Assembly: GCA_029881035.1 (NCBI GenBank)
Contig: JAOUNI010000019.1
Coordinates: 1 to 45,900 of the forward strand
Direction of reading: 5' to 3'
Length of the DNA: 45,900 bases
From: Gammaproteobacteria bacterium
GTDB lineage: Bacteria; Pseudomonadota; Gammaproteobacteria; SZUA-229
This document shows, one piece after another, positions 1 through 11,694 of this stretch. The notes under the pieces were generated by a model. It saw only the letters and a list, made by a program, of their open reading frames with translations. It searched no databases and was not told the DNA's origin. The translations under genes and the position numbers were made by a program. Every line of letters begins with the position of its first letter. Positions within the stretch are counted from its first letter, which is position 1.

Positions 1-2082
1 GACCTCCTGCCCGCTAATGACTTTATCGAAACGCACACCGGTCACACACTCATCGCCGATCACTTCTATTGGCGCATACTCCAGACGCAGGCGTACACCT
101 TCCTCCCAGGCGGCCTGTTTTTCTTTAGGGGTTGCACGCATCGCCTGTTCATTACCGCGATAGGCCATGGTCACTTCTACCGCACCCTGGCGAAGTGCAG
201 AACGTGCGCAATCTATCGCGCTATCACCACCACCAATAACCAGCACGTGTTTGCCCAACAGGGCAACACTGTTATTATCTTTATTCACCTGTTGCAAGTA
301 ACTCAGCGCATCCGTGACACCTATTAAATTCTGCCCCGGTAATTTTAAATCACGGGATGTCTGTGCACCGGTTGCCAGAAAAATGGCATCACTGGAACGC
401 TCTATTTTCTGCAACATGATCTGATCAACTTCGACGCCCAACTGAAAATGAACACCCTGTTTTTTTAACAATTGATAACGCCGTTCAAGCATGGCTTTAT
501 CCAGCTTGAAAGGTGGCACACCGGTAGCCATCAAACCACCCACCTGTGCATTCCGGTCATAGACCGTGACGACACAACCCGCCTTATTGAGTTCATCCGC
601 ACAGGCAAGCCCGGCGGGTCCGGCACCGATGACAGTAATATGCTTTCCATTCTGCTTTATAACGTTCAGAGGCTGCCATTGTTGCTCTAAAGCCTCATTA
701 ACCAGATAACGTTCAATAGCACCAATCGTCACCGCACCCCCCGGCTCCTTAGCCTTGGTACACGCACCTTCACACAAGCGCTGTTGCGGACATAAGGTGC
801 CGCAGATTTCTGGCAGATTGCTGGTGCTATGTGCAATCTCAGCTGCCTGCTGTAAATTGCCAACAGCCACCTGCTCCAGCCATTCGGGAATTCGGTTATT
901 CAGTGGACAGGCATTACTGCATCCCGGCAAGCCACAATCCAGACAACGACTCGCCTGTGCCTGAATCATCGACAAAGAAGGATGTTGAACAATTTCAGAC
1001 CAGTCATTAACTCGTTCATCCGACAAACGACTCGCAACTTCTTCACGACCCGAGTCCATCAAGGGATTACGTTTTAATAAATGACTGGCATTCTGTTTCA
1101 GTGATCTATTGAAAAAATTGCGCACATCGGTAATTTCCAGCGCATCCGTCGGACAGGAAACCACGCAACGGGCGCAGCCCATGCAATCTTCCAGCGCGGT
1201 AACACGTCCCGCTTGCTGACCCTGTCTCCATACGGGAATACCCATATCACACACCTGTTCGCAACGCTGGCAATCATTGCACTTGTCTTTATCCATATTG
1301 ATGCCATAAAAACCCGCATGATTGAGCAGGCCAAAGGTGGCACCATAAGGACACAGGTAACGACAATAAAAACGATTGCCGACGATGGGTGCAACAAAAA
1401 AACTACCGAAATAAGTCATAGAGACAATGAGATAAAAACCGCCGACAAAACCGACTGTCCACGAGTTGGGCGGGTACTGGGTAACCACCATGACACCGAC
1501 GTAATAAATAAAGAAAAACCATTTTGTGTGACGCAATTTCCAGGTCCAGTTGGAACGTAATGTACGGTCACGAAAAGCGAAACCCACGGTTTCACGAATT
1601 CCCACACAGGGGCAGTTAAAGCCGCAGATAATGCGACGACCAAATAGGAACACCGCAGCCAGAATTAAAAAGAAAGTGATCGTGCCCGGCACATGTAGCG
1701 AGGGGAACACCGGCTGCGACCAGAGAAAACCCACATAGGGTTCGTAAAAAGGATACAGCCATGGAACCAGCCACCAGAATACCGTGACCATGGAAACTAA
1801 AATAATTAAACGCTTTCGCGTGTAAGCATTTTTTTCGGCCATAATTCGCCAGAGCCCGAAACCAAGAATAATGCCGTATTCGGTATAACGATTTAGCCAG
1901 ATGGGATTATCAAACCAGAATAACCAGGTTTCATTGAGCCAGCCAACAAAAGCCAGCGTAAATGCTGCCATGCTTAAAAGCTGAATACCTATACCATAAC
2001 GACTCGGCATTAAATCCTGCAAGCCCGAAGATTGTTCGCGCGGTACATGACATATTGGTGGCTCAGCCTTAACAGTAAACAT
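1..2082 (-). CDS. NapH/NosR-like membrane polyferredoxin fused to GltD-like NAD(P)-FAD oxidoreductase (3' end outside window)
   Basis: One uninterrupted reading frame of 694 codons runs from ATG at 2082 to the window edge, so the C-terminus is missing. The N-terminal third has about six hydrophobic segments and a CxxxCP-type loop, as in NapH/NosR/CcoG membrane proteins. Two 4Fe-4S ferredoxin motifs follow near residues 268-279 (CNDCQRCEQVC) and 301-312 (CMGCARCVVSCP). From about residue 380 the protein switches to GltD: CLDCGLPGC and further cysteines, a first dinucleotide fold near 480 (VIGAGPAG) and a second near 613 (VIGGGDSA). GltD-type subunits move electrons between NAD(P)H, flavin and Fe-S clusters, so the fusion looks like a membrane-bound NAD(P)H/polyferredoxin electron-transfer protein. 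Its ATG sits 1 nt after the upstream stop, which indicates translational coupling. The electron partner is not known from sequence. Confidence 0.85.
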   Translation of the reverse strand, partial: MFTVKAEPPICHVPREQSSGLQDLMPSRYGIGIQLLSMAAFTLAFVGWLNETWLFWFDNPIWLNRYTEYGIILGFGLWRIMAEKNAYTRKRLIILVSMVTVFWWLVPWLYPFYEPYVGFLWSQPVFPSLHVPGTITFFLILAAVFLFGRRIICGFNCPCVGIRETVGFAFRDRTLRSNWTWKLRHTKWFFFIYYVGVMVVTQYPPNSWTVGFVGGFYLIVSMTYFGSFFVAPIVGNRFYCRYLCPYGATFGLLNHAGFYGINMDKDKCNDCQRCEQVCDMGIPVWRQGQQAGRVTALEDCMGCARCVVSCPTDALEITDVRNFFNRSLKQNASHLLKRNPLMDSGREEVASRLSDERVNDWSEIVQHPSLSMIQAQASRCLDCGLPGCSNACPLNNRIPEWLEQVAVGNLQQAAEIAHSTSNLPEICGTLCPQQRLCEGACTKAKEPGGAVTIGAIERYLVNEALEQQWQPLNVIKQNGKHITVIGAGPAGLACADELNKAGCVVTVYDRNAQVGGLMATGVPPFKLDKAMLERRYQLLKKQGVHFQLGVEVDQIMLQKIERSSDAIFLATGAQTSRDLKLPGQNLIGVTDALSYLQQVNKDNNSVALLGKHVLVIGGGDSAIDCARSALRQGAVEVTMAYRGNEQAMRATPKEKQAAWEEGVRLRLEYAPIEVIGDECVTGVRFDKVISGQEV

Positions 2083-2083
2083 T

Positions 2084-3046
2084 TTATTCAGTGGGATAGT
2101 TCTTTTTAATCCAGTCAGTCATACCCATTTTCGCCACATGCACGTCTGCAAAACCATGTTGTGCCAGCAACTGTGCAGCCTTAGCTGATTTGCGATCAGT
2201 TCTACAAATGGTAACCACCGGTTTTTCAAGATAATCACCTATCTCTTCTAATCGATATTCGAGTTCTTCCAGTGGAATGAGCTTTGAACCTGCAATATGC
2301 CCCTGCTCACCAACATAATCCTCGGCTGTACGCACGTCCAGCAACAGCACTTCTTCATCACTATCCAGACGTTGTTTAAGTTCATCCACAGCCAGCATCG
2401 AACCTTTGCGCAGACTACCGATTATTCTGGGCAAAAATGACACCATTGCCAGTAATGCCAGGGCCAGCATAGTTTTTTGCACCAGACCTTCACCACCCGT
2501 GGCAGCCTCTCTACCAATGTATCCGAGATAGGTATAAGCAATGGCGCCGGGCAACATACAAACGTAGGTAGCCAGACTATATTGTGTAAAGCTGATACGA
2601 GTCAGACCTAATGCATAGTTCAGTAGATTGAAGGGGAACAAAGGCACCAGACGAACAAAGGCCACAAATCGCCAGCCTTCGTTCTCAACGCCATTAATAA
2701 GTTGTTTTAGTCGACCACCAGTTTTATTGGCAACCCAGTCTGAGGCCAGAAAACGCGCGACCAGAAATGACAACATGGCACCAATGGTGGCCGCAGTCAG
2801 ATTATAAAAAGTGCCTAGCATCGGGCCGAATAAAGCACCACCGAGCAAAGTTAATACCGAGCCGGGAAAGAAGAAGATGGTGCCAACGATGTAAACCAGC
2901 ATGAACAACAGCGGTGCAGCCGCACCGGCATTTTCAATCCAGACCTGCAGTGCGGCGGCATCCAGCTGATCACGATAAACAATGACGGCGCCAATGCCTG
3001 CGGCAACCAGCAACAGCAGCAATAATTTTACTAATTTTTTATTCAT
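2084..3046 (-). CDS. TVP38/TMEM64-family membrane protein with C-terminal rhodanese domain
   Basis: The chosen start is the ATG at 3046 (MNKKLVKLL), giving 320 residues. Longer readings use upstream codons inside the previous gene. After an N-terminal membrane helix comes the SNARE-associated/TVP38 domain, with the FFFPGSVLTLLGGALFGP stretch and a second glycine-rich segment around RLVPLFPFNLLNYALGLT. The last 95 or so residues form a rhodanese domain with an active-site loop CRTDRKSA (Cys at about 281), so the catalytic cysteine is intact. Rhodaneses carry sulfane sulfur as a persulfide, while TVP38 proteins belong to the DedA-like transporter/scramblase group. The start overlaps the upstream hydroxylase by 8 nt and the stop lies 1 nt before the next gene, so the three genes form a coupled operon. 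The substrate is unknown. Confidence 0.85.
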   Translation of the reverse strand: MNKKLVKLLLLLLVAAGIGAVIVYRDQLDAAALQVWIENAGAAAPLLFMLVYIVGTIFFFPGSVLTLLGGALFGPMLGTFYNLTAATIGAMLSFLVARFLASDWVANKTGGRLKQLINGVENEGWRFVAFVRLVPLFPFNLLNYALGLTRISFTQYSLATYVCMLPGAIAYTYLGYIGREAATGGEGLVQKTMLALALLAMVSFLPRIIGSLRKGSMLAVDELKQRLDSDEEVLLLDVRTAEDYVGEQGHIAGSKLIPLEELEYRLEEIGDYLEKPVVTICRTDRKSAKAAQLLAQHGFADVHVAKMGMTDWIKKNYPTE

Positions 3047-3914
3047 TATTATTTTTCTCGTTTGAATCACTCCACAGTCGACGGTTAATTGCATAATCGG
3101 TCACTTTGCCAACGAAGGGCATGGCCAGCATGCCAGTTATCCATGAACACTGTTTTGCTTCGGTAAAATGATGTATGCCGATCGTCATACCAGTATGACC
3201 TGCACGCGGTTGATCACGGTAGGTACCAAAAAGACGGTCCCACCACGACAGATTAAAACCAAAGTTGCTGTTAGTTTCATCGTCTTCGATTGAATGATGC
3301 ACCCGGTGCATGTCAGGTGTAACTACAAACCAGCGTAAAAAATTATCCAGTGTCTTTGGCAAACCAATATTACCGTGATTGAACATCGCCATGACATTGA
3401 GTAGCACTTCAAAAATAATGACTGCTACTACGGGCGGACCTAGCAATAAAATGGCAGCAAATTTAATCAACATGGAAAGAATAATTTCTAACGTGTGAAA
3501 ACGCGCACCAGTAGTGACATCGTAATCAAGATCAGCATGGTGAACCCGATGCAAACGCCATAATACAGGTACGGCATGAACCATGACATGCTGTAGATAG
3601 ATAACAAAATCCATAATCACCACCGAAGCCAGCATGGCAAAACCCATCGGCACCTCAATCCGATTAAATAATCCCCATTGATTCTCAAGCGCTGTAGCGG
3701 CTACACCTACAGCTGCTGCAGGAAATAAAATCCGCACAATAAAATTATTAAGAAACACCAGAGCCAGGTTATTTATCCAGCGCACAGCTTTAGAGACCGT
3801 CAGCGCACGTCTGGGCGCAATAATTTCCCAGATCGCCATGACAGCCAACATGCCAATAAAAAAACTCAGACGAATCGTTTTTTCATTTTCAAGCACAAAA
3901 TTGTAAAAAGACAT
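3039..3914 (-). CDS. Sterol desaturase / fatty acid hydroxylase superfamily protein
   Basis: A 291-residue polytopic membrane protein with the histidine clusters that bind two irons in this superfamily: H109xxxH113, H122xxH125H126 (HRVHH), H180 and H203xxH206H207 (HRVHH). Hydrophobic segments lie near residues 14-33, 52-72, 90-108 and 145-175. Members use oxygen and external electrons to hydroxylate or desaturate lipids. The NAD(P)H-type flavoprotein/polyferredoxin two genes downstream is a reasonable electron source, which is inference. This is the first gene of a coupled operon and is divergent from the ArsR-rhodanese regulator at 4021. The substrate cannot be told from the sequence. Confidence 0.88.
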   Translation of the reverse strand: MSFYNFVLENEKTIRLSFFIGMLAVMAIWEIIAPRRALTVSKAVRWINNLALVFLNNFIVRILFPAAAVGVAATALENQWGLFNRIEVPMGFAMLASVVIMDFVIYLQHVMVHAVPVLWRLHRVHHADLDYDVTTGARFHTLEIILSMLIKFAAILLLGPPVVAVIIFEVLLNVMAMFNHGNIGLPKTLDNFLRWFVVTPDMHRVHHSIEDDETNSNFGFNLSWWDRLFGTYRDQPRAGHTGMTIGIHHFTEAKQCSWITGMLAMPFVGKVTDYAINRRLWSDSNEKNNNE

Positions 3915-3933
3915 GATTACCTCTGCTAGCTGC

Positions 3934-3961
3934 TTGCATGAAATCGTTATCTGGCTATAAT
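3934..3961 (+). promoter_or_regulatory. Putative sigma-70 promoter for the ArsR-rhodanese gene
   Basis: TTGCAT at 3934-3939 and a perfect TATAAT at 3956-3961 are separated by 16 nt and read rightward toward the gene starting at 4021. Transcription would start around 3968, just before the palindrome at 3975-3996, a position suited to autorepression. Confidence 0.5.
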
Positions 3962-3974
3962 TAAACCTATAGAA

Positions 3975-3996
3975 TATTCAATTGATTTCTTGAATA
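3975..3996. promoter_or_regulatory. Inverted repeat, candidate ArsR-family operator
   Basis: TATTCAA (3975-3981) and TTGAATA (3990-3996) form 7-nt arms around an 8-nt spacer. An extra direct repeat AGAATATT lies at 3971-3978 and 3997-4004. AT-rich palindromes of this size are typical ArsR/SmtB/BigR operators. The site lies just downstream of the rightward promoter. It also overlaps a possible leftward -35 box (TTGAAT, complement of 3976-3981) for the hydroxylase operon, so one bound dimer could control both directions. Confidence 0.5.
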
Positions 3997-4020
3997 AGAA
4001 TATTACTGGATAACGGATTA

Positions 4021-4686
4021 ATGTCAAGCCAAGGTGTAAAACAATTATTATTTGAGCAGTTTGCCCGTATTGGCAAGGCCATGAGTAATGCTAACCGACT
4101 GGAAATACTAGAATTTCTTGCGCAGGGTGAGCGCAATGTAGAGGAGTTATCCAAACTCAGCAACCTCAGTGTAGCCAATACCTCCCAACACCTGCAACAA
4201 CTTCGCCAGGCAGGTTTGGTAGTCAGTCGCAAGCAGGGCTTGAATGTCTATTACAGTTTGAGTGGTGACGATGTTATTGCCCTGCTTAATGTGCAGCGCA
4301 AAGTTGCCGAGCTACACATTGCAGAAGTGAATAAACTGGTTGATAACTTTCTAACTGTAAAAGACTCACTGGAAGCCTTATCCCGAAAAGAACTATTGTC
4401 CCGCGTCAAACAGGGGTTGATCACTATTATCGACGTGCGTCCGGCCGCTGAATATGCCGCTGGTCATGTACGCGGTGCCATCAACGTACCACTCGACAAA
4501 CTCGAAGAGCAGTTAATTAATTTTGATTCTAACAAAGAAATTGTAGCTTATTGCCGCGGCCCACACTGTGTACTGGCTTATGATGCCGTAGAAAAATTAC
4601 GCAAACAAGGTTTCAAGGCGAACCGACTGGAAGATGGATTCCCCGAGTGGAAGGTGGCGGGACTGCCCATAGAAAAGCTGAATTAA
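4021..4686 (+). CDS. ArsR-family winged-helix regulator fused to rhodanese domain
   Basis: This 221-residue protein has an ArsR-type winged helix (about 10-90; recognition helix within NLSVANTSQHLQQLRQAG, from residue 48) followed by a rhodanese domain (about 120-215). The rhodanese active-site loop is C178-RGPHC183. The ArsR half contains no cysteine, so the classical thiol metal site is absent. The only cysteines in the protein are the two in the rhodanese loop, which suggests sensing of sulfane sulfur or another thiol-reactive signal rather than arsenic or cadmium. The gene is divergent from the hydroxylase/TVP38-rhodanese/polyferredoxin operon, with an operator-like palindrome between them, so it probably represses that operon and itself. 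Confidence 0.9.
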   Translation: MSSQGVKQLLFEQFARIGKAMSNANRLEILEFLAQGERNVEELSKLSNLSVANTSQHLQQLRQAGLVVSRKQGLNVYYSLSGDDVIALLNVQRKVAELHIAEVNKLVDNFLTVKDSLEALSRKELLSRVKQGLITIIDVRPAAEYAAGHVRGAINVPLDKLEEQLINFDSNKEIVAYCRGPHCVLAYDAVEKLRKQGFKANRLEDGFPEWKVAGLPIEKLN

Positions 4687-4755: not shown

Positions 4756-5112
4756 ATGAAACTGATTTTTGTTTATAACGCCGATTCTGGCCTGTTCAAT
4801 ACCGTTACCGATATTGCACACAAAATACTCTCACCCAAAACCTACAGCTGCAACTTATGCGCGCTTACGCACGGACATTTCAAAATCAAAGCAGACTGGG
4901 TAGATTTTCTTAAAGACATTGAAGCTGAACTGGAATTTCTTCACCGCGATGAGTTTGTTCAACAGTACCATTACAGCAATGCTGAACTGCCAGCCATCTT
5001 TATCGAAGAAAATAATGTTTTATTACCGTGGATAGACCAGGCCACCATTAACCAAATTCAAAATCTAGATGGTTTAAAATCAGTCATTCTAAAAAGAAAG
5101 CAACAGAGCTGA
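4756..5112 (+). CDS. Small conserved hypothetical protein with a CxxC pair
   Basis: A 118-residue soluble protein with a good ribosome site (GGAGATAATA before the ATG). The start (LIFVYNADSGLFN) resembles the first strand and loop of a small alpha/beta fold, and C32-x2-C35 lies in the segment SCNLCALTHG. Proteins of this look occur in proteobacteria with vague names such as 'GTPase', but no P-loop is visible here, so I do not assign a function. It lies 69 nt after the ArsR-rhodanese gene on the same strand and may be co-transcribed, and it is convergent with fdx. Confidence 0.75.
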   Translation: MKLIFVYNADSGLFNTVTDIAHKILSPKTYSCNLCALTHGHFKIKADWVDFLKDIEAELEFLHRDEFVQQYHYSNAELPAIFIEENNVLLPWIDQATINQIQNLDGLKSVILKRKQQS

Positions 5113-5147: not shown

Positions 5148-5486
5148 CTAATGATTTTCAGATACCATGTTGATAGTGTACTTTGGAATTTCGATGACCA
5201 GGTCTGCATCACCCACTTTCGCCTGACAACTTAAACGAGAATCCGGATCCAGTCCCCAGGCTTTATCCAGCATATCATCTTCTGTTTCAGTATTTTCATT
5301 GAGAGAATCCATACCTTCTCGAACGTAGACATGGCAGGTCGTGCAGGCGCAGGATTTCTCACAGGCGTGCTCGATTTCAATACCATTGGCAAGTGCAGCA
5401 TCACAAATAGTCTGGCCTTTTTCAGCTTCGATCACCATGCCATCAGGACAAAGTTCTTCGTGTGGTAAAACAATTATTTGTGGCAT
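5148..5486 (-). CDS. fdx: Isc-type [2Fe-2S] ferredoxin
   Basis: A 112-residue adrenodoxin-like ferredoxin. The cluster ligands are C42, C48, C51 and C87, with the additional conserved C46, in the pattern HACEKSCACTTCHVYV...LSCQ. This is the same layout as Fdx of the E. coli isc operon. It supplies electrons for cluster assembly on IscU. It is the last gene of the isc operon, 9 nt after hscA. No iscX follows; the next gene is on the opposite strand and convergent. Confidence 0.96.
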   Translation of the reverse strand: MPQIIVLPHEELCPDGMVIEAEKGQTICDAALANGIEIEHACEKSCACTTCHVYVREGMDSLNENTETEDDMLDKAWGLDPDSRLSCQAKVGDADLVIEIPKYTINMVSENH

Positions 5487-5495
5487 TGGGTCTAT

Positions 5496-7379
5496 CTACT
5501 CCTGATCTTTACCAGCATATTCATTGATAGAATGACCTTGCATGGCGTTACGTATATTAGAATTCATCCGCCGTGCGACATAATCAGCACAGGCGCTTTC
5601 AAGTGTCTTAATGGCTGCTTTGATGCTCTCAGCATCATCACCGGCTTTGGCTTCGAGCAATTGTACTCTAGCCTGAGCGATGTTATTTCTTTCTTCATCC
5701 GACAGCAATTCATCACCATCTTTTTTCAAAGCCGCATCCAGTGCCTCAACCACCCGTTCGGCTTCCACCTGCTGCTCTCGCAACATGCGCGAATGCATAT
5801 CATCCGAGGCATGATCCATCGAATCACGCAACATGGTTTCAATTTCTGAATCAGTCAAACCGTATGAAGGTTTAACATCAACACTGGCTTCAATACCGCT
5901 ATTTTCTTCACGCGCGCTCACAGTCAACAGACCATCGGCATCGACCTGATAAGTCACACGGATCCTTACCGCACCGGCAACATGCGATGGAAAACCACGC
6001 AGATCAAAACGCGCCAGTGACCGGCAATCATCAACCAGCTCTCGCTCGCCCTGCACCACATGCACCGCCATGGCAGTCTGCCCGTCTTTATAAGTGGTAA
6101 AGTCCTGCGCCTTGGCGACAGGGATGGGCGTATTACGATAGATAATTTTTTCTGCCAAACCGCCCATGGTTTCAATACCCAGCGACAGGGGAATCACATC
6201 CAGCAATAACATCTCATCATCGGGCTTGTTACCCGCCAGCACATCAGCCTGTAAAGCCGCGCCCACGGCAACCACTTTATCAGGATCAATACTCACCAGC
6301 GGTTCACGCTGAAAAAAGTCGCCCACCATTTCGCGAACCGCCAGCGTGCGTGTAGAACCACCGACCATGACAACTTCAAGCACGTCTTCAGTAGTCACAT
6401 CGGCATCACGCAGTGAACGGCGACAGGCCATGATGGTTTTTTTGATCAGCGGCTCAATTAAAGTACGCATCTGTGAGCGACTCAAACTTCCCTGCCAGAA
6501 AAAATCGCCGGTTTCGACTTTGATATTGACCTCATCCACATGCGCCAATTGCTCTTTGGCAGAACGAGCCTCTCTCTTCAACAAACGTACCAACGATGCA
6601 CTCGGTACTTTCTTGCTTCCCGATTGCTCAAGTATCCATTCGGCGATGGTGTGGTCGAAATCATCACCGCCGAGCGCACTGTCACCACCAGTGGCTAGCA
6701 CTTCAAACACGCCCTGCTTCAGGCGCAAAATAGAAATATCGAAAGTACCACCGCCAAGATCGTAAATCGCAATTATGCCTTCCTGCCCCGTATCTAAACC
6801 ATAGGCAACAGCGGCAGCGGTGGGCTCATTGAGCAAACGCAAGACATTAAGACCTGCCAGTCGTGCCGCATCTTTGGTGGCCTGGCGCTGTGCATCATCA
6901 AAATAAGCTGGCACGGTAATTACTGCACCGACAAGGTCATCACCTAAAGTGGCGACAGCCCTGGCTTTAAGTGTTTTTAAAATTTCCGCAGAAACTTCAA
7001 CAGCACTGACATCACCAGAACGTGTATGAATTTTTGGCACGGCCGATTCAGACGTTGAAAATAGGTAGGGCGAGCTCTCAGCCAGGCTCTTTAAATCACC
7101 AGCCGCACGCCCCATCAGACGCTTTACCGATACAATGGTATTAGATGGGTCAATGACGGCATGTTCGACCGCCGCCTCTCCTACTTCTATGCCAGTTTCA
7201 GCATAACGCACCACCGAGGGCAATAAATGATGACCCTGCTCATCTGGCAAAGTTTGTGCGTCGCCGCTTCTTACCGTGGCCACCAGTGAATTAGTGGTGC
7301 CCAAATCTATACCCACCGCCAGTCGATGCTGATGTGGCGCGGTAGTCTGTCCGGGTTCAGAAATTTGCAGTAAAGCCAT
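5496..7379 (-). CDS. hscA: Fe-S assembly Hsp70 chaperone HscA
   Basis: A 627-residue Hsp70. The ATPase domain carries [14 protein letters not shown] near residue 23, [26 protein letters not shown] and VGGSTRT. The substrate-binding domain and helical lid follow from about residue 395. HscA binds the LPPVK motif of IscU, present in the neighbour at 8361, and uses ATP hydrolysis stimulated by HscB to release the cluster. The ATG lies 2 nt after the hscB stop, which makes the pair tightly coupled. Position and length identify it as HscA rather than DnaK. Confidence 0.97.
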
Positions 7380-7381
7380 AT

Positions 7382-7927
7382 TTAAAATAGTTCATCTTCA
7401 ATTTTTGCAGACAGTTCATCCACTTCTTGTTTAGCTTTTTGCATGAACTGCATTTTTCTTATCCATTCCTTTGCGTCATCCAGTTTTTCATTCTCATAAG
7501 AATCGGAAAAACTTTTCATCATGTTTTTCATTGTATCTTTTATTTGTCTGGAAAATTGCTCCAGCTCGAATAGAGGATCATCCTTTGAAGAGACATTAGA
7601 CAATGCTTCGCGCATTTCCATCTGCCCCATTAAAAAATCCATATCCATTGTCGTTTCGTTTTCCAGATTAAGGTCAACGTTTTTTAATTTTAACAGGTAA
7701 ATAGCTCTGGCAACTGGCTGTTGTAAGGTATTAAAAGCCTCATTGATCAACGAGGTCTGCTGCATGGAGATACGCTTCTCCAGATCCGATGCATTGACAA
7801 ATTTATCAGGATGCACCGCTTTCTGTAAATCCCTGTGGCGTTGTTGAATCTTTTCAAGATCAACTTCATAAGCCACAGGTACATTAAACAGTTCGAAGAA
7901 ATTGCTGGTAAGAATATCAGTTATCAT
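7382..7927 (-). CDS. hscB: J-domain co-chaperone HscB
   Basis: This 181-residue protein has an N-terminal J-domain containing HPD at residues 39-41 (KAVHPDKF) and a C-terminal coiled helical domain that binds IscU. HscB brings IscU to HscA and stimulates its ATPase. The length is slightly above the usual 170 or so residues. It lies 44 nt after iscA and 2 nt before hscA, all leftward. Confidence 0.95.
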
Positions 7928-7971
7928 AGCCCTGTCATTATAGCGTCTGGCAAATTAAGCAACAGCCTCGA

Positions 7972-8295
7972 CTAGACAGTAAAGCTCTCACCACATCCGC
8001 ACTGATCCTTCTCTTTGGGATTGTTAAATTTAAAACCTTCATTCAGGCCTTCTCTGGCGAAATCGACCTCAGTACCATCAATGTAAACCAGACTTTTTTT
8101 ATCAACAATAACCTTCACACCATTATTCTCAAAAACCTCATCATCCGGATTGATTTCATCAACAAATTCGATGACATAACCCATACCAGAACAACCCATG
8201 GTTTTTACGCCCAGACGTAAACCTATGCCTTTGCCTCTATTTTTGAGAAAGCCTTTAACGCGCTCAGCAGCAGGTTCAGTTAAAGTAATAGCCAT
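7972..8295 (-). CDS. iscA: A-type Fe-S carrier IscA
   Basis: A 107-residue HesB/IscA protein with the three conserved cysteines C35, C99 and C101 (GCSGMGY and CGCGESF). A-type carriers accept iron or clusters from IscU and pass them to target proteins. It sits between iscU and hscB in the standard isc order. The ATG at 8295 matches the usual N-terminus ([10 protein letters not shown]). Confidence 0.97.
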
Positions 8296-8360
8296 ACAAA
8301 CAGTTCCGAATATTAAATTTTTGAGTTTAAATTGATCTTTGCAGATTATTGTAAAAAAAC

Positions 8361-8741
8361 TTACGCATGTTTTTTTCTATAGTCTTCTACTGCTGCATTA
8401 ATAGCATCTTCTGCCAGTACGGAGCAATGGATTTTAACCGGTGGCAATGCCAGCTCTTCTGCCAAATCAGTATTTTTAATCGCTTTTGCTTCATCCAGGG
8501 TTTTACCTTTTACCCACTCAGTCAGCAATGAGCTAGATGCTATTGCACTACCGCAGCCGTAAGTTTTAAATACCGCATCTTCAATCACGCCTTCATCATT
8601 TACCTTGATCTGCAAGCGCATCACATCACCACAGGCAGGTGCACCGACCATACCGGTGCCAATGTTTGCATCATTTTGATCAAACTTACCTACGTTTCTT
8701 GGATTCTCGTAGTGATCCAGAACTTTTTCACCGTATGCCAT
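8361..8741 (-). CDS. iscU: Fe-S cluster scaffold IscU
   Basis: This 126-residue scaffold carries ligands C37 (GAPACGD, with D39), C63 (YGCGSA), H105 and C106. The HscA recognition motif LPPVK is at residues 99-103. Clusters form here from sulfur delivered by IscS and iron. The gene lies 64 nt after iscS in the leftward operon, and its length and motifs are fully canonical. Confidence 0.98.
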
Positions 8742-8805
8742 ATCGTCGTGCCTCTAATACTTTTATCTTTTTATCTAACTATTACGCAACACACTGATCA
8801 CAGAT

Positions 8806-10032
8806 CTAGTGGGCTGCCCATTTGATGCTATTGAGATCAATACCATCTTTATACATATCCCACAGTGGTGATAAATTTCTCAATTTTTCAACTGCAGAAC
8901 GCACATGTTTGATTGTAGTTTCAATATCTTTACTGGTCGTATACCGGCCCATACTGAAACGAATCGAACTGTGCGCTAATTCATCATTACGGCCCAGTGC
9001 CCGCAGAACATAACTGGGTTCAAGACTGGCTGAAGTGCAGGCACTACCGCTGGAAATAGCCAGGTCTTTCAAGGCCATCAGCAAGCTTTCACCTTCGACA
9101 TAATTGAAACTGATATTCAAGTTACCCGCAACACGCTGATCAAAATCACCATTTACATAAACCTCTTCCATATCTTTGAGGCCATCCCATAATTGATTTC
9201 TCAAATTGATCAAACGTTCATTTTCGGTCGCCATCTCTTCTTTTGCGATGCGGAATGCTTCACCCATGCCAACAATTTGATGCGTTGCCAATGTGCCAGA
9301 GCGCATACCACGCTCATGACCACCACCGTGCATTTGCGCTTCCAGTCTCACACGTGGCTTTCTTTGCACATATAAAGCACCCATACCTTTCGGACCGTAA
9401 ATTTTGTGTGCTGAAAAACTCATCAAATCGACCGGCAACTCACTCAGGTTCATAGGCACTTTGCCGGCACTTTGCGCCGCATCGACATGGAAAATAATTT
9501 TACGTTGACGACAGGCTTTACCGATGGCTTCGATGTCCTGGATTACGCCAATCTCATTATTAACATGCATAATTGAAACCAGCGTAGTGTCATCGCGCAT
9601 CGCAGCTTTTAACTTATCCAGGTCTATCAGGCCATTTTGTTCTGGATCGAGATAAGTCACTTCATAGCCTTCTCTTTCCAGTTGACGACAGCTATCTAGG
9701 ACCGCTTTATGTTCAGTTTTGCAGGTAATAATATGCTTACCGCTTTTAACATTGAAATGCGCAGCACCTTTAATGGCCAAATTATCCGACTCAGTTGCTC
9801 CCGATGTAAAAACAATCTCACGTGGATCAGCCCCAACCAGATCTGCAACATGTTGACGCGCCTGTTCAACTGCCGCTTCAGCTGTCCAGCCATAAGAATG
9901 GCTACGTGATGCAGGGTTACCAAAGATAGCATCGGACCCCATATATTTAAGCATTTCAGCTACAACACGTTCATCAATCGGTGTTGTAGCACTGTAATCT
10001 AAATAAATCGGTCTATTTGTTTTATCGTTCAC
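8806..10032 (-). CDS. iscS: Cysteine desulfurase IscS
   Basis: A 408-residue PLP enzyme that removes sulfur from cysteine to give alanine and an enzyme persulfide. Lys210 in [10 protein letters not shown] binds PLP, and Cys332 in [14 protein letters not shown] carries the persulfide. The C-terminal tail ([18 protein letters not shown]) is the typical IscU-contact end of group I IscS. The start is GTG at 10032, preceded by AGAAGAG. It is the true isc-operon desulfurase, next to iscU; a shorter paralogue lies upstream at 10076-11218. Confidence 0.97.
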
Positions 10033-10075
10033 AATTCAACTCTTCTGTTACGTTAATTCTGCTGATTTAATTCAT

Positions 10076-11218
10076 TTACAAATTCGCTGCCATCATAACC
10101 GCTGAATTTGATAGTCCTATAATCTGTTTCATCGCTTCAATGAAGCGCTCAATCTCAGCCATAGTATTTGCTCTACCCAGACTCACACGTATCGCACTGG
10201 TCGCTAGTTGATTAGGCACTGCCATGGCTTTCAAGACATGACTGGGTTCAGTCTTACCACTGGTACAGGCCGAGCCACTAGACACAGCAAATCCGCGTCG
10301 ATCCAGCTCCATTAAAAGCGTCTCACCATCAAAACCCTGTACGCCAAATTGTAATGTGTTAGGTAAGCGCCTGACCTGTTGTGAAAAAACTTTCACCACT
10401 CCCAACTGCATCAATTCTTTTTCTAGCGCATCACGCAGAACTCTCACATGATCAGCACGTTCAATCAGCTCCTGTGCAGCCAGTTCAGCCGCCATGCCGA
10501 AACCAACGATGGCAGGAACATTCTCTGTACCTGCTCGCAACCCTTTTTCCTGTGAACCACCCTGTAATAAAGAATGCATAGGAAGGCATTTATCAACAAT
10601 CAAAGCCCCGGCACCCATCGGCCCGTATAACTTATGCGACGACAAAGTCATTGCATGTACTGCTGTTTTCTCAAAACTAAATTCAAGTTTCCCGGCTATT
10701 TGTGACGCATCGGTATGAAACCATATATCATGCGCCCGAACCTCTTCTGCCAACTTATTTATATCCTGTACGGCACCAGTTTCATTATTCGCCGCCATAA
10801 CTGAAACCAGAACTGTCTCTTTATTGATTGCCTGCTTCAACGATTCCTGAGTTACCAGGCCTTGTCCATCGACTGCAATCTGATCGACATTGCAACCCAC
10901 TTCGGCTGCTGGTTGCAACAATGACATGTGTTCAATCGCGCTTACTGCAATACGCTGTACCGCCGTATCCATGCTCAATCCTTTGACCATTAAATTATTT
11001 GCTTCCGTACCACCACTGGTAAAAATAACCTGTGATGACTGCGCACCCATCAACGCTGCAACCTGTTCACGCGCCTGTTCAATCGCCTGTCGCTGCAATC
11101 GCCCAAAACGATGCAAGCTTGATGGATTACCGCAGACTGAACCCATATATGGCTGCATTGCCTCGAAGATTTTTTCGTGCAATGGCGTGGTTGCATTGTG
11201 ATCAAAATACACCGCCAT
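10076..11218 (-). CDS. Second cysteine desulfurase family protein (NifS/IscS-like)
   Basis: A 380-residue class V aminotransferase-fold protein that retains the PLP lysine (Lys196 in SSHKLYGPMGAG) and the catalytic cysteine (Cys318 in [14 protein letters not shown]). It is clearly divergent from IscS next door and lacks the long IscU-binding tail of the 408-residue enzyme. It starts 20 nt after iscR and ends 43 nt before iscS, so it is part of the same transcript. It could supply sulfur to a different acceptor or act as a backup desulfurase. Activity is inferred from intact residues. Confidence 0.93.
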   Translation of the reverse strand: MAVYFDHNATTPLHEKIFEAMQPYMGSVCGNPSSLHRFGRLQRQAIEQAREQVAALMGAQSSQVIFTSGGTEANNLMVKGLSMDTAVQRIAVSAIEHMSLLQPAAEVGCNVDQIAVDGQGLVTQESLKQAINKETVLVSVMAANNETGAVQDINKLAEEVRAHDIWFHTDASQIAGKLEFSFEKTAVHAMTLSSHKLYGPMGAGALIVDKCLPMHSLLQGGSQEKGLRAGTENVPAIVGFGMAAELAAQELIERADHVRVLRDALEKELMQLGVVKVFSQQVRRLPNTLQFGVQGFDGETLLMELDRRGFAVSSGSACTSGKTEPSHVLKAMAVPNQLATSAIRVSLGRANTMAEIERFIEAMKQIIGLSNSAVMMAANL

Positions 11219-11238
11219 GTTTACTGGCCTTTTATACT

Positions 11239-11694
11239 TTATGCAGCTGCATCAGAGCAGATTGAATCCTGTCTGATCGAAACTTCTTTAACACGCTTAT
11301 TACGCATCAGCTCAGCCAGCGTAATACCATCCAGAAAATCTTTAATCTCATTACTTAAATCCTGCCAGAGATCATGTGTTAAACAACGATGTTCGTGCTT
11401 ACAATCTTCATTTGAACCACAGGCAGACATTTTTACGCTTTCATCTACAGCCACGATGATAGCTGATACACTTAGCTCTTCGGCACTCGTTTTCAAAGAA
11501 TAACCACCACCCGGCCCACGGGTACTGACAACAATGTCATTACGTCGTAGTTTCGAGAATAGTTGCTCTAGATAAGATAACGAGATATCTTGCCGCTCTG
11601 AAATTGCGGCTAGTGAAACAGGACCTTCATCCTGATGAAAAGCTAGATCTAATATCGCAGTAACCGCATAGCGGCCTTTTGTTGTCAGACGCAT
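11239..11694 (-). CDS. iscR: Rrf2-family Fe-S regulator IscR
   Basis: A 151-residue Rrf2 winged-helix protein. The [2Fe-2S] ligands C92, C98, C104 and H107 ([16 protein letters not shown]) are spaced as in E. coli IscR, and the DNA-binding half begins [13 protein letters not shown]. With a cluster bound, IscR represses its own operon through type-1 sites. Two such sites lie directly upstream (11736-11760 and 11762-11786). It is the first gene of the isc operon. Confidence 0.97.

Follow-up and report, generated by a model that had tools for sequence, protein, structure and literature searches.

A polyferredoxin-GltD fusion most likely partnered by an octahaem cytochrome at a sulfur-linked ArsR-rhodanese locus of Gammaproteobacteria

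The window analysed here is a whole contig (G000:C25, 45,900 nucleotides (nt)) of a gammaproteobacterial genome assembly of 2.69 Mb with a completeness of 98%, and its left end carries three minus-strand genes that diverge from the gene of an ArsR-rhodanese regulator. The gene at the contig end (1..2082, minus strand) codes for a NapH-like membrane polyferredoxin fused to a GltD-type iron-sulfur (Fe-S)/FAD/NAD(P)H module, hereafter the fusion; its frame shows no stop and leaves the contig after 694 amino acids (aa), the complete relatives having 786-826 aa. Upstream of it lie the genes of a VTT-domain (DedA/TVP38-like) membrane protein with a C-terminal rhodanese (2084..3094, minus strand) and of a membrane di-iron protein of the FA_hydroxylase superfamily (3039..3914, minus strand), followed by the regulator, an ArsR/SmtB winged helix fused to a rhodanese with the loop CRGPHC (4021..4686, plus strand). 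A single nucleotide (base 2083) separates the VTT-rhodanese stop from the fusion start, and the hydroxylase and VTT genes overlap by 56 nt with the ATG at 3094 or by 8 nt with the alternative second ATG at 3046. Between the divergent genes we found a predicted operator, TATTCAATTGATTTCTTGAATA (3975..3996, no strand), which matches exactly the dyad TATTCAA-N8-TTGAATA. These coordinates agree with a sequence-only reading of the same DNA, according to which the three leftward genes overlap or stand 1 nt apart, and Pfam profiles together with intact motifs in all four proteins confirmed its domain calls. The neighbourhoods of relatives indicate that the most likely partner of the fusion is an octahaem cytochrome system encoded beyond the contig end, and not the hydroxylase.

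We first describe the fusion itself. It scored 112 bits with Fer4_20 and 90 bits with Pyr_redox_2, in addition to Fer4 pairs, and exhibited the features of a NapH polyferredoxin, with two CX3CP motifs (C153/C157 and C240/C244) and ferredoxin clusters at C268-278 and C300-310. The motifs GAGPAG and GGGDSA are intact, and the Fer4_20 and NAD(P)H/FAD domains that characterize GltD-type flavoproteins are all present, in full length in the relative at locus L040. With the curated models the fusion stayed below the cut-offs, reaching 70 bits against 213 for NapH/MauN and, for the glutamate synthase small subunit model TIGR01318 (gltD_gamma_fam, cut-off 483), 359 bits for the truncated protein and 425 for a full-length relative. 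Used as a query against plasmids, it returned partial AegA/YgfT/GltD matches and nothing else.

A scan of the fusion against 84,980 species genomes gave 57 usable loci, which share ancestry, so that the following counts are not independent. Among the 43 loci with at least 3.2 kb of downstream sequence, an octahaem HAO-family cytochrome was located 3' of the fusion in 42, a pentahaem cytochrome in 40 and a cytochrome c in 20. On the 5' side, the 41 loci with at least 4 kb of upstream sequence showed ArsR-rhodanese (32), VTT (27), hydroxylase (27), DsrE (21) and TauE (7), and 14 of these 41 had no hydroxylase within 9 kb upstream. The same-genus genome G002 has the identical gene order, continued by a dihaem cytochrome c, the octahaem cytochrome and the pentahaem cytochrome. 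Two Magnetococcales loci have a polyferredoxin that lacks the GltD part and still adjoins the octahaem gene, which fits the polyferredoxin as the electron input and the GltD part as an added entry for NAD(P)H. No NapC/CycX-type quinol dehydrogenase, as expected beside Hao in reverse-HURM nitrite ammonification, stood out in the neighbourhoods, in which no NapC model was run. The fusion is carried by Thiohalobacter, Thiogranum, Thiobacillus, Thiotrichaceae, Candidatus Thiodiazotropha, Thioploca, Arenicellales, the Lamellibrachia and Escarpia endosymbionts, Methylophaga, and metagenome-assembled genomes (MAGs) of one Methylococcales and two Magnetococcales; the named carriers are mostly sulfur oxidisers.

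The same association was seen at the level of whole genomes. In 58 related genomes, in which a hydroxylase was counted as close at 62% identity or more, 9 contained the fusion; a full-length octahaem was confined to 6 of those 9 and occurred in none of the 49 genomes without the fusion. The three fusion genomes without an octahaem (the window's own, G008 and G027) are exactly those with a contig end in or just behind the fusion. A close hydroxylase was found in 37 of the 58 genomes, 28 of which have no fusion anywhere, and no fewer than 21 of these 28 are 90% complete or better; the hydroxylase thus does not need the fusion. Taken with the linkage of fusion and octahaem, this makes the octahaem system the most likely partner of the fusion. 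For the strain under study we infer that the module continues beyond the contig, on the basis of the octahaem present in the same-genus genomes G002, G003, G005 and G006 and in the close relative L073. As a separate observation, 3 of the 9 fusion-bearing contigs of kindred genomes break off within the fusion or shortly after it (at window position 1, in L057 and in L071), as if the sampled strains differed in carrying the cytochrome module.

The data on the octahaem protein come from relatives, the window ending before its gene. All octahaem proteins counted contain 8 CXXCH motifs, and all pentahaem proteins but one contain 5. By sequence, the octahaem protein belongs to the HAO family, with 143 bits for PF13447 and profile matches to 4n4j (292 bits), 6t5e (286), 6h5l (270) and 6hif (268). 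The position of Tyr467 of the Nitrosomonas HAO (1fgj) is occupied by a valine, and no tyrosine occurs in the loop of the 17 diverse members aligned. A missing Tyr cross-link has been taken to predict that catalysis is reductive (PMC8940962, PMC12758564), and the absence of the catalytic tyrosine of the oxidative HAOs suggests that the octahaem protein is a reductase.

The regulator scored 48 bits with HTH_5 and 68 bits with Rhodanese, and its sole cysteines, Cys178 and Cys183, are located in the rhodanese loop. Residues 1-110 contain none, which excludes cysteines in the DNA-recognition helix as in CVC-type arsenite sensors, and also the cysteine pair in the ArsR domain by which persulfide sensors of the SqrR/BigR type are defined; the BigR model gave 35 bits against 155. 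Any sensing of sulfane sulfur must therefore occur in the rhodanese loop, unlike in SqrR and BigR, and the regulator may read this signal through its two rhodanese cysteines. Sulfane sulfur as the signal had been proposed in the sequence-only reading: the link to sulfur stood, with DsrE, TauE and SQR genes nearby, a majority of sulfur oxidisers among the carriers and a dsrA gene in the own genome (626 bits), and the response of the regulator itself is assumed from its domain.

A dyad search found TATTCAA-N8-TTGAATA at 12 or more of its 14 bases in 86 of 111 distinct promoter regions, compared with 3 of 555 shuffled ones. The dyad is also present in loci that lack the hydroxylase and have the fusion immediately next to the regulator (L116, L122, L153 and L120), and G158, G116 and G168, all complete genomes, have no other site at up to 1 mismatch. 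Its conservation and these sole-site genomes argue for one local regulator acting in both directions, and the predicted joint control of the divergent genes by the ArsR-rhodanese is well supported. In the own genome, 17 dyad sites were counted at up to 1 mismatch against 12 in the control, and we dropped these sites as a candidate regulon since they are mostly due to chance. Two same-genus genomes (L054:9622-9921 and L055:13114-13425) have a shortened, partial ArsR frame at the otherwise kept locus, of which the first 46-47 residues match, and the regulator may be decaying there.

We then considered the locus from the side of the regulator. ArsR-rhodanese matches were obtained in 78 of 274 genomes of the class, and 60 loci were read. 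Of the 52 with at least 3 kb of divergent sequence, 37 contained the hydroxylase, 35 the VTT gene and 32 both, and the fusion together with the octahaem was found in 6 of the 39 loci with at least 8 kb. On a regulator tree of 89 rows, 29 of which have fusion and hydroxylase at one locus, the fusion switches between present and absent many times. Branches with good support require 10 or more changes of the combined fusion and hydroxylase state, a rough figure, the bootstrap being unsettled. These counts and repeated changes show that the locus is a stable core of regulator, hydroxylase and VTT genes with exchangeable cargo, namely the octahaem module, DsrE with SQR, TauE, or arsenosugar genes. 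The core is kept in about 30 genomes of the same family and in many families of the class, well above chance, and the conserved order and shared operator uphold the earlier proposal of an operon under the ArsR-rhodanese.

The hydroxylase matches PF04116 with 102 bits and carries the histidine motifs HX3H, HX2HH and HX2HH at 109, 122 and 203, all intact and invariant across 24 aligned sequences. It is not an OlsE by the curated model (98 bits for a cut-off of 475), and a fold search with its model gave no PDB match. The VTT-rhodanese scored 90 bits with VTT and 60 bits with Rhodanese, whose conserved Cys297 is intact. Paralogues of the hydroxylase fused to PAS and GGDEF, with 648-895 aa and intact histidine motifs, were observed at G000:C38:27093-27917 (L032:8971-10917), L034 and L036, where the hydroxylase-type membrane domain apparently provides the input to a diguanylate cyclase. 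On the other side of the locus, an open reading frame for a small conserved protein of no known family (4756..5112, plus strand) starts 69 nt 3' of the regulator gene and is a frequent neighbour of the regulator in relatives. It has an invariant VYNADSG and a CxLC motif, no Pfam or NCBIfam match, and a model for which the fold search returned nothing beyond weak thioredoxin-like matches (E 0.05). It is followed at 5148-11694 by leftward genes for a ferredoxin, HscA, HscB, IscA, IscU, IscS and a second IscS-like protein, which adjoin the locus in this genus; these Fe-S assembly genes beside a module rich in haem and Fe-S are a convenient neighbour, probably placed there by chance.

Taken together, the window probably shows the first part of a locus by which sulfur-oxidising Gammaproteobacteria respond to sulfur. 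One operator would serve two separable modules, and the fusion would feed an octahaem reductase under the control of the ArsR-rhodanese. The sequences show the gene order, the linkage of the modules, the conserved dyad, the haem counts and the loss of the catalytic tyrosine; the direction of the electrons, the substrate, the repression and the chemistry of the signal we infer. One module would be a membrane module of hydroxylase and VTT protein, with or without rhodanese; the other would comprise the fusion and, beyond the contig end, a mono- or dihaem cytochrome c, the octahaem HAO-family cytochrome and the pentahaem cytochrome. The cytosolic GltD part would draw electrons from NAD(P)H via FAD and Fe-S clusters, and the membrane polyferredoxin would hand them on to the periplasmic haems, where the octahaem protein would reduce a small substrate such as nitrite, nitric oxide (NO), hydroxylamine or a sulfur oxyanion. 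At the dyad, the regulator would repress both its own transcription and that of the divergent operon, and let go of the DNA once sulfane sulfur loads the rhodanese cysteines. The setting of dsrA with DsrE, TauE and SQR speaks for a sulfur-dependent trigger, and the enzyme family for nitrite, NO or hydroxylamine as the substrate.

Several points weigh against this reading. The absence of the tyrosine merely predicts the direction of catalysis; no gene fixes the substrate, the sulfur-type neighbours and the HAO-type enzyme pointing to different elements; and the regulator is, as said, assumed to respond to sulfur. The module occurs without an adjacent ArsR-rhodanese in three Candidatus Thiodiazotropha loci, one Methylococcales and one Methylophaga locus, and DNA and protein searches found no octahaem in the window's own assembly, whose contig ends inside the fusion. 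Furthermore, 9 of the 12 genomes whose fusion locus has no adjoining hydroxylase hold a homologue elsewhere, which weakens the argument from hydroxylase-less fusion loci; we withdrew the view that the hydroxylase is simply missing there. This last point favours the proposal of the sequence-only reading that the fusion could supply the di-iron hydroxylase with electrons from NAD(P)H, the set as a whole then remodelling lipids in response to sulfane sulfur. Di-iron hydroxylases require an electron donor, and the adjacency, the 1-nt gap and the joint regulation in this genome, like the 29 tree rows with both genes at one locus, are in line with it. We nevertheless regard it as very improbable, because the fusion is linked to the octahaem instead (42 of 43 loci), the fusion is absent from 28 of 37 hydroxylase genomes and the hydroxylase from the vicinity of 14 of 41 fusions, and no hydroxylase was found in the remaining three of the 12 genomes, two Magnetococcales and one Methylophaga.

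The electrons could also run the other way: the octahaem protein would then oxidise a reduced compound of sulfur or nitrogen, while the fusion would make NAD(P)H or reduce ferredoxin for carbon fixation. Most named carriers being lithotrophic sulfur oxidisers, and GltD-type modules occurring also in the bifurcating NfnAB (5jca matches), such a flow is conceivable, yet it appears unlikely given the loss of the tyrosine of oxidative HAOs in 17 of 17 aligned members and the GltD-less polyferredoxins before the same octahaem, which fit a quinol-driven input. That the modules are mere neighbours in a variable island, with a promoter in common and no joint function, would agree with the repeated gain or loss of the fusion module on the regulator tree and with the varied cargo (SQR, DsrE, ArsS, octahaem) after the same core; the order, strand and operator unchanged over many families make this decidedly unlikely. 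A role in arsenic handling, with the ArsR-rhodanese sensing arsenite and the membrane module helping to make arsenosugar lipids, is suggested by ArsS within about 10 kb in 10 of the 39 class-wide loci, for about 0.25 expected at one gene per 3 Mb, by the full set of ArsS, TIGR04283/TIGR04282 glycosyltransferase and ArsM directly after the VTT gene at L045:13959-17167, and by an ArsM-like gene 3' of the octahaem in L125 and L128. The complete arsenosugar set was also seen behind or near the hydroxylase-VTT core at L044, L068 and L118, and its occurrence there is far commoner than expected. Since the DNA-binding part of the regulator is free of cysteines, most loci have no ArsS nearby, and the ArsS of the own genome is on another contig (C40), only a very slim chance is left to this explanation.

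All the single domains are already known. Our search of the open-access literature found no paper on this gene set, on the operator or on a NapH-GltD fusion feeding an octahaem enzyme, in agreement with the earlier remark that no described pathway has this set. We tentatively propose a respiratory module not described before, in which the fusion may connect NAD(P)H in the cytosol directly with an HAO-family octahaem/pentahaem reductase in the periplasm, and an ArsR-rhodanese reading sulfane sulfur would act as the switch; if so, the reduction of nitrogen or sulfur compounds would be tied to the sulfur status of the cell. Octahaem cytochromes decide between oxidation and reduction of nitrogen or sulfur intermediates, and for many of those from sulfur bacteria and from tubeworm and clam symbionts neither an electron donor nor a regulator has been assigned; the conserved set offers a candidate for both. 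The operator designates the targets of the regulator, and the fusion, which resembles a hydroxylase reductase when seen in a truncated contig and is here re-assigned, designates a testable entry point for NAD(P)H.

The components were finally compared with known systems. With the ornithine-lipid hydroxylase OlsE and other FA_hydroxylase enzymes, the hydroxylase of the locus has in common PF04116 and the histidine motifs, and it differs from OlsE by its score below the model cut-off and by having no solved relative in the fold search. The sulfane-sulfur repressors SqrR, BigR, YgaV and sHdrR/SoxR (PMC10451225, PMC12423496) have, like the present regulator, an ArsR/SmtB winged helix and adjoining sulfur genes, whereas the latter has no cysteine in the DNA-binding domain and both in the fused rhodanese. 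The CX3CP motifs and two ferredoxin clusters of NapH/MauN polyferredoxins, and the Fer4_20 and NAD(P)H/FAD domains of the GltD/AegA/YgfT flavoproteins, are found here in one membrane protein which scores under the curated cut-offs. The octahaem tetrathionate reductase (OTR) of Shewanella and Beggiatoaceae (PMC6449678) is likewise an octahaem protein found in sulfur oxidisers near sulfur genes, but the protein of the module matches the HAO profile PF13447 and OTR is not among its PDB matches; the otr gene near soxY in a paper on lucinid symbionts is a different locus, and the Beggiatoa octahaem BOGUAY_0691 adjoins napAB, unlike the present setting. Two reductive members of the family, the Kuenenia HAOr complex (6h5l) and the Campylobacterota Hao of the reverse-HURM pathway, share with the octahaem protein the eight CXXCH motifs, the HAO family, the absence of the cross-linking tyrosine and a small haem partner nearby; the module described here is distinguished from both by an N-terminal hydrophobic, anchor-like stretch, a pentahaem partner, a polyferredoxin-GltD electron entry and a rhodanese-type regulator.

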